From a virus: 24,756 nucleotides of DNA. A program made the position numbers and the translations under genes. The stretch covers positions 1 through 24,756 of the IMG/VR virus record IMGVR_UViG_3300010396_000097; one strand, written 5' to 3'. Under the pieces are notes generated by a model. The model ran no database searches and was not told the origin of the DNA. It worked only from the letters and a program-made list of their open reading frames with translations. Below, piece by piece: positions 6,582 through 7,863 of the stretch; within the stretch, counting starts at the first letter, position 1, and each line of letters begins with the position of its first letter.

Positions 6582-6655
6582 CGCGGTTAGATGCACTGGC
6601 GTGCATACCTGGCCCATAACCAGGCTCTAGGTTGGTTCGATTCCAACAACCGCAA
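6582..6655 (+). tRNA. tRNA with CAU anticodon (Met, fMet or Ile2)
   Basis: A cloverleaf folds over 74 bases. The acceptor is CGCGGTT with AACCGCA (six pairs plus a C1-A72 mismatch). The D stem is ATGC with GCAT around an eight-base loop containing GG. The anticodon stem is CCTGG with CCAGG (6608-6612, 6620-6624), the anticodon CAT lies at 6615-6617, and the T arm is GTTGG-TTCGATT-CCAAC. Oddities: base 33 is C instead of the near-universal U, base 8 is A instead of U, the variable loop has six bases, and the end reads ACGA so CCA is not encoded. The C1-A72 mismatch is an initiator hallmark, but the pyrimidine-purine pair T11-A24 and the missing third G-C pair in the anticodon stem are not. An Ile2 tRNA reading AUA after lysidine modification is a serious alternative. 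Confidence 0.85.
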
Positions 6656-6918
6656 CGATTTGTAGTGCTAGACAGCCCCGCAAGGACAAGCCCGCCTAGT
6701 AGAGCGTAACCCCCAGGTTGTAACTGGACACGGTGAGATATCAAGGGTAACGGACAAATATACATATAGATATATCAAAGTGTAGATATATCGATACGTT
6801 TAAGTATATCCCGCGAGCGTAGATATCGGTAGCAGCTTTAGAGCTATTTACTCATTGTAGCTAGTCAACCTGATTGCAGATATCGCGCTGCGTCAGTATC
6901 GAATTCAGAAGGTATATA
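6656..6918 (+). other. Non-coding leader before the capsid gene
   Basis: No credible gene fills this gap. It holds a second copy of the leader element (6675-6691), a tRNA-like fragment (6690-6727) and an A/T-rich tract with repeated palindromes: GATATC at 6737-6742, GATATATC at 6769-6776 and 6785-6792, and GATATC at 6822-6827 and 6879-6884, plus GTATATC at 6804-6810. TAGATATATC is repeated exactly, 16 bases apart (6767-6776, 6783-6792). The capsid ribosome site AGAAGG (6907-6912) closes the region. This is the natural place for a late promoter or RNA processing site, but I cannot point to a convincing -35/-10 pair. Confidence 0.5.
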
Positions 6919-7863
6919 ATGTCTCTCAATCTTAACCTCACCTCAACGGGTGGGCTTAACGACGCCTCGGCCATTTTCTATGACCGCAAGCTCTTAACCC
7001 GCCTTATGTTCAACCTGTTTCTCCAAGAGAGTGCCGAAAAACGGACGCTCCCGAAGGGTAACGGTACACAGATTCAATTCCTCCGCCCAGCGAACCTTGC
7101 GGCTATCACCTCGGCCCTCACGGAAGGCACGAACCCGAACGGTCAAAGCTGGCAGTCCACAAAAATCCTGGCGACCCCCGTGCAATACGGCGGATATATC
7201 GCCTATTCGGATCGCCTCATGTTGGAAGCGTATGACAATATCACGGAAGCCATGCACGACGTTCTCGGCTATCAAGCCGGATTGTCGATGGATACCATTG
7301 CGCGAATCGCTCTGGCTGGCAACGTGACCACGCAGTACACGGGCACGGCGACGAGCGAAGCCACGGTTTCTGTTGCGACCGCCGCCGTTGACTTCCGCAA
7401 AGCCGCGAAAGCCTTGAAAACGCTTGCTGTTCTGCCTTTCGAGGACGGCTGTTTCCGCGCGGTTATTCACCCCGCGACCTCGGCTGATCTTCAGGCCGAT
7501 TCCGCCGCCGGTGGATGGCTGGACGTTAATAAGTACGTTTCAATCGCATCGGAGCATGACAAAGTGCTGACCGGCGAAGTGGGTAAGTTAGTCGGCGTTC
7601 GGTTCCAAGAGTCGCAGAACATTCTTACCGGTACGGGCGCGGCTAGCGCGGTCACGTATCACAGCATGGTATTCGGAAAAGAAGGCTTTGGTTCGGTTGA
7701 CGTTGCTAACCAAGGAATTCAAAAGATCGTTCACCAACCGGGCGACAGCGGCGTTTCTGATCCGTTGAACCTCAATGGAACGATAGGATGGAAGGCTTAC
7801 GTCGTTTTTCCCATCCTCGATGCAAACCGCATTGTAGAGATTATCGGAACAAGCAACTACTAA
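6919..7863 (+). CDS. Major capsid protein, N4-gp56 family
   Basis: This 314-residue protein is the shell subunit. Its N-terminal half matches the N4-gp56 capsid family: a leader ending in YDRKLLTRL, then EKRTLPKGNGTQIQF (about residues 39-53), a LTEGTNPNGQ loop (about 69-78), then YGGYIAYSDRLMLEAYD and the helix HDVLGYQAGLSMDTIAR. The family folds as an HK97-type shell protein. The ATG at 6919 has AGAAGG six bases upstream; in-frame codons further upstream lack a start with a ribosome site. Codon use differs from terminase and portal: only 1 of 18 isoleucines is AUA, as expected for the most highly made protein. It follows the scaffold across the tRNA gap. Confidence 0.92.
   Translation: MSLNLNLTSTGGLNDASAIFYDRKLLTRLMFNLFLQESAEKRTLPKGNGTQIQFLRPANLAAITSALTEGTNPNGQSWQSTKILATPVQYGGYIAYSDRLMLEAYDNITEAMHDVLGYQAGLSMDTIARIALAGNVTTQYTGTATSEATVSVATAAVDFRKAAKALKTLAVLPFEDGCFRAVIHPATSADLQADSAAGGWLDVNKYVSIASEHDKVLTGEVGKLVGVRFQESQNILTGTGAASAVTYHSMVFGKEGFGSVDVANQGIQKIVHQPGDSGVSDPLNLNGTIGWKAYVVFPILDANRIVEIIGTSNY

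Follow-up and report, generated by a model that had tools for sequence, protein, structure and literature searches.

The window, by which we mean the whole stretch of 24,756 nucleotides analysed here, is a tailed-phage contig that carries terminase, portal, major capsid protein (MCP), tail and DNA polymerase genes. ARAGORN finds a single tRNA within these 24.7 kb, a tRNA-Met(cat) at 6582-6656 on the + strand. As Table 1 shows, it lies among the head genes: it starts 4 nucleotides past the stop codon of the putative scaffold gene upstream of the MCP, and about 260 nucleotides separate it from the MCP gene. Between the upstream gene and the MCP, we found neither a terminator-like site nor, on the + strand, a promoter-like one.

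Table 1. Features around the tRNA of the window, and modules found in related loci (positions preceded by the name of the locus)
Feature	Position	Strand	Basis or remark
Putative scaffold gene, 288 aa	5711..6577	+	named from position alone, no PHROG match
tRNA(CAU), candidate initiator type, tRNA positions 1-73	6582..6655	+	ARAGORN, cloverleaf parse, covariance model, fold
A8	6589	+	
6-bp D stem (predicted)	6591-6596/6601-6606	+	
C33	6614	+	
Anticodon	6615-6617	+	
CGA where an encoded CCA tail is expected	6656..6658	+	sequence
MCP leader	6659..6918	+	conserved structured RNA, no Rfam match
CCC...GGAYA hairpin modules in leader	6673-6690, 6709-6733	+	
Hairpin with conserved 8-nt loop ATATCGCG	6875..6891	+	27 nt before MCP start; stem covaries across relatives
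Major capsid protein (MCP)	6919..7863	+	phrog_1357, E 1.7e-48
YrlA-like module	L041:2528-2587, L042:2568-2627, L043:2630-2690, L044:1422-1482		
YrlA-like module	L046:2628-2687, L050:2211-2270, L053:2526-2581		

The tRNA and its fold

Read directly from 5' to 3', the parts of the tRNA are CGCGGTT, AG, ATGC, ACTGGCGT, GCAT, A, CCTGG, CCCATAA and CCAGG, and then CTCTAG, GTTGG, TTCGATT, CCAAC, AACCGCA and A, followed by CGA. A preliminary description of the locus reported a CAU tRNA with a clear cloverleaf, on which ARAGORN, the predicted fold and a covariance model agree, and a list of oddities that are all present in this reading: a C1·A72 mismatch, A8, T11-A24 (U11-A24), C33, a pair T-A at 29-41 (U29-A41) where the third G-C pair is missing from the anticodon stem, the pairs 30-40 and 31-39 being G-C, and a 3' end that reads ACGA and not ACCA. 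Position 73 is A, and the variable loop has 6 nucleotides. The 3' end would have to be completed by a CCA-adding enzyme.

Folded alone, the tRNA is predicted to form a cloverleaf at -28.1 kcal/mol (z = -2.76), in which all stem pairs are standard save 1-72. The predicted pairing of the D arm continues via 14-21 and 15-20a, which yields 6 base pairs and a loop of 4 nucleotides, TGGC: this extended D arm is a feature that the preliminary description missed. It would abolish the usual 8-14 and 15-48 contacts, and may also compensate for their loss.

A covariance model trained on 16 tRNAs from related phages, the window being excluded from training, gives the tRNA a score of 51.6 bits, with E about 5e-13, which implies that it is not a chance match. 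No Rfam tRNA match of the window tRNA reaches its gathering score. The best one is tRNA-Sec (RF01852), at 34 bits, below the cut-off of 47, probably because the D arm is extended to 6 base pairs with a 4-nucleotide loop, the one respect in which we liken the two. A tRNA-Sec is rejected: its UCA anticodon, long variable arm and 13-bp acceptor/T stack are absent, and the window tRNA has instead a CAU anticodon, an acceptor stem of 7 positions in a 7+5 layout, and a short variable loop of 6 nucleotides.

The slot ahead of the capsid gene in related phages

Of two scans with the MCP, the wider one yielded 39 viral loci. Where the MCP is at least 67% identical to that of the window and the upstream region is in hand, ARAGORN finds a tRNA before the MCP at every locus except L040 and L060; at L041 it reports only a tRNA-Ala, and we located the CAU tRNA of this locus with the family model and with a parse of our own in which the acceptor boundaries were placed manually. 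At loci with an MCP below 50% identity, the space ahead of the MCP is 20 to 41 nucleotides long and the tRNA is absent. Phage Pony, a cultured Pagevirus relative, has just 22 nucleotides between the upstream gene and the MCP, with no annotated tRNA there, and an MCP-based search for prophages in bacterial genomes found none.

On the MCP tree, the slot holds a tRNA in 20 of the 22 rows of the window's clade, and the anticodon is CAU in 19; since each row is a metagenome contig and some are close to each other, these numbers do not count independent events. One gain and two losses suffice to explain the 22-row clade, and the losses, at L040 and L060, indicate that the slot tRNA is dispensable. 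The slot tRNA of L056 has a CCU anticodon and a broken 2-71 pair. Most relatives encode ACCA.

The sequence of the tRNA changes faster than the neighbouring MCP and leader. Its nearest distinct relative, in L039, is about 60% identical. Between L038, a near copy of the window, and L039, the identity is 94% for MCP residues, 64% for the last 150 nucleotides of the leader and 60% for the tRNA; between L041 and L042, the same three values are 96.5%, 84% and 57%, both tRNAs being CAU with A72. Neighbours with MCPs 95-97% identical can have tRNAs whose identity falls to 55-57%. The data fit both replacement and fast divergence, and either could account for this turnover.

What is kept amid the turnover is best seen on the 18 distinct slot tRNAs. 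All have A72 and A37; in 17, the 1-72 pair is unpaired, the state of L041 depending on its hand-set acceptor boundaries; and G2-C71, C3-G70, CAU and A73 are each found in 17. The pair G30-C40 occurs in 16 of the 18, and A11-U24 (A-T) in 9. With the window and L041 left out, two-sided changes are seen at 15 of 21 pairs, and the covariation score is 0.775, versus 0.198 for shuffled alignments and 0.09-0.16 for slid ones (maximum 0.161): beyond the 1-72 end, the stems have preserved their pairing although many of the pairs changed on both sides. The mismatch C1·A72 and the pairs G2:C71 and C3:G70 are known determinants of formylation (PMC7949028). The features retained in the slot are the ones that belong to initiation and to the formylation of Met-tRNA.

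The slot and its surroundings hold other sequences. In L048 and L049, open reading frames that resemble, by eye, endonuclease VII or HNH enzymes lie between the tRNA and the leader; the slot therefore also accepts endonuclease genes. L045 and L050 have, 3' of the CAU tRNA, an Ala-type (TGC) tRNA-like sequence whose T loop, GGCAGAA, is unusual, at a place where L041 has a regular tRNA-Ala(TGC). The CAU tRNAs of L045 and L048 have yet another deviant core, with a D loop TAGAGCTA lacking the G18G19 pair and a G at position 55.

Initiator features and competing explanations

With bacterial initiator tRNA-fMet, the window tRNA shares the CAU anticodon with A37, the mismatch C1·A72, the pairs G2-C71 and C3-G70, A73, and the pairs G30-C40 and G31-C39. 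It differs by A8, C33, U11-A24 in place of A11-U24, U29-A41, which interrupts the three G-C pairs 29-41/30-40/31-39, the 6-bp D stem, the 6-nucleotide variable loop and the absence of CCA. Because of the deviations at 29-41 and 11-24, we read it as a variant with a putative initiator-like function that stands outside the canonical tRNA-fMet family. The paired 1-72 end of an elongator tRNA-Met or a tRNA-Ile2 is replaced by C1·A72, and the broken stems of a pseudogene are not found.

The preliminary description presented C33, A8 and the missing CCA as unusual. Each of them is recurrent in CAU tRNAs of phages, and it is their combination that is rarer. The exact anticodon arm of the window, with C33, occurs in 22 viral stretches and its U33 version in at least 120, the latter being a lower bound, so that the ratio is rough. 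After parsing, there are 15 distinct C33 tRNAs, the window's own included, and, among the matches listed, 86 distinct U33 tRNAs, both sets being selected by their anticodon arm. In the C33 set, 9 of 15 are mismatched at 1-72, 3 have A8 and 3 encode CCA, and some members are elongator-like (L023, L034); in the U33 set, again among the matches listed, the figures are 62 of 86 for the mismatch and 7 for A8, with CCA encoded in 41 and not encoded in 45. Within the window's clade, the window and its near copy are alone in having C33; U33 stands in all the rest. The A8 and the extended D stem are also present in the otherwise intact-looking tRNAs of L049, L053 and L018, and the last combines both with C33. 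To our knowledge, no characterised bacterial initiator has A8, C33 and an altered core together. Metazoan cytoplasmic initiator tRNAs also have C33 for U33 (PMC9023262); they are eukaryotic, with a distinct T loop (A54/A58), and no homology is claimed.

The nearest match in a cultured phage is a CAU tRNA of Pectobacterium phage Bobbio (MN812694, Otagovirus). The two are 75.7% identical over the whole tRNA and have in common A8 G9, the GCGGTT acceptor and a similar D arm; that of Bobbio has U1-A72, U33 and an encoded CCA, and stands among other tRNA-like matches in a phage of 98.5 kb. The CAU tRNA on the viral contig of L018 shares C1, A8, the extended D stem, a TGG-type loop and an identical C33 anticodon arm; however, its 1·72 is C·T, and it belongs to a large array, 27 tRNAs in a 14-kb locus, and not to a capsid leader.

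We conclude, with a probability of roughly two thirds, that the window tRNA is a phage-encoded tRNA of initiator type, co-transcribed with the late head genes and putatively active. This reading is the best supported because the features conserved in the slot are the determinants of initiation and formylation, and the suggestion of a phage initiator variant in the preliminary description is thereby strengthened. In its favour is also the fact that the 1-72 mismatch prevails among viral CAU tRNAs from elsewhere that share this anticodon stem (62 of 86 among the matches listed); against it stand U11-A24, U29-A41, A8 and C33 with the altered core, the missing CCA, and the losses in L040 and L060. 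In the mechanism that we propose, one transcript would run from the putative scaffold gene through the tRNA to the capsid leader; the tRNA would be cut out by RNase P and 3' nucleases of the host, and a CCA-adding enzyme would then complete its 3' end. MetRS would charge it, and Met-tRNA formyltransferase, aided by C1·A72, G2-C71 and C3-G70, would formylate it. The mismatched 1-72 end should keep an initiator tRNA off EF-Tu. The pool of initiators might thus be enlarged at the peak of capsid translation.

A bolder and rather doubtful conjecture is that an initiator tRNA is a standing part of the capsid mRNA leader, in a slot refilled by unrelated-looking but only initiator-type tRNAs, where excision would both free the initiator and make the 5' end of the structured leader, coupling the supply of initiator to capsid synthesis. 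The presence of tRNAs in phages has long called for an explanation, and codon usage has been the main argument; a tRNA of initiator type has no part in decoding internal codons, so codon compensation is here a poor explanation. Because the position ahead of the capsid gene is fixed and natural losses can serve as controls, the question becomes open to test. The slot set also shows how much an initiator can change, here by A8, C33, an altered D arm and an incomplete 3GC, with the acceptor-end determinants retained.

We weigh in turn, from the likeliest down, punctuation, nuclease resistance, decay and an Ile2 identity. The cloverleaf could be mainly a site for RNase P and 3' nucleases, whose cuts would detach the capsid mRNA, structured leader included, from the transcript of the upstream head genes; the tRNA so released would be of secondary importance. 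The tight layout described above, 4 nucleotides after a stop codon and about 260 ahead of the MCP with no sign of a + strand promoter or of a terminator between, agrees with such a role, as does the leader retained even in the tRNA-less L040 and L060. However, the tRNA was lost twice there with the leader kept, and a mere processing signal need not preserve CAU, A37, A73, A72, G2-C71 and C3-G70 amid turnover: we hold punctuation to be unlikely. There is also a small chance that the phage initiator, with its C33 and altered core, takes the place of host tRNA-fMet that VapC-type toxins cleave in the course of infection. This is compatible with an initiator function and with the recurrence of C33 in viral CAU tRNAs; phage tRNAs bear changes in the anticodon loop that are predicted to protect them from tRNases, and the initiator tRNA is a target of VapC, but phages of hosts bearing VapC-LT2 reportedly tend not to encode tRNA-fMet (PMC10264068). 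Moreover, C33 is limited in the clade to the window and its near copy.

The preliminary description also considered a decaying gene, or an Ile2 tRNA. That the gene is heading for loss could be read from A8, C33 and CGA for CCA, and the losses in L040 and L060, like the CCU anticodon and broken 2-71 pair of L056, are real; for the copy in the window, however, decay seems quite improbable, its stem pairs being standard save the initiator mismatch despite only about 60% identity to L039, and A8 with the extended D stem being found in the otherwise intact-looking tRNAs already cited. A tRNA-Ile2 reading AUA, with lysidine at C34, would agree with CAU, A37 and A73, but the unpaired 1-72 with A72, seen in nearly all slot tRNAs, fits initiators and not elongators, and AUA accounts for just 70 of 361 Ile codons (19%), no marked enrichment; we give this identity hardly any credit.

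The capsid leader and an upstream tRNA-like module

The leader between the tRNA and the MCP is conserved over the clade, in the window and in L039-L060, with repeated CCC...GGAYAA hairpins. Most members have, 26 to 31 nucleotides ahead of the start codon and shortly before the ribosome-binding site, a hairpin with loop ATWTYGMG, whose inner stem covaries, on few pairs and with modest statistics. L040 and L060 have kept the leader without the tRNA, so that of the two elements the leader is the more stable. It could act in autoregulation or in mRNA stability. The leaders of the window and of L043 match no Rfam family. In the same two loci, a group I intron is rejected for want of an Rfam match at E values of 10 or less, as is an HDV-like theta ribozyme 3' of the tRNA, a kind of element whose known cases are described in PMC10879173. 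A CsrA-type reading of the GGA motifs is set aside as well: by inspection, some modules are GAGATAAG, without GGA.

Upstream of the initiator-type tRNA, seven relatives have a module resembling the tRNA mimic of Y RNA (YrlA). It reads as a circularly permuted tRNA, but a novel permuted tRNA gene is rejected, as its Rfam match is to YrlA, in the part that mimics a tRNA. This match covers part of the model and scores 35-41 bits, below the family cut-off of 69. A search for Ro60 (TROVE) in eight phage records, including the module carriers L041, L046 and L053, found none. The acceptor-like stem of the module in L041 differs from the others yet stays paired.
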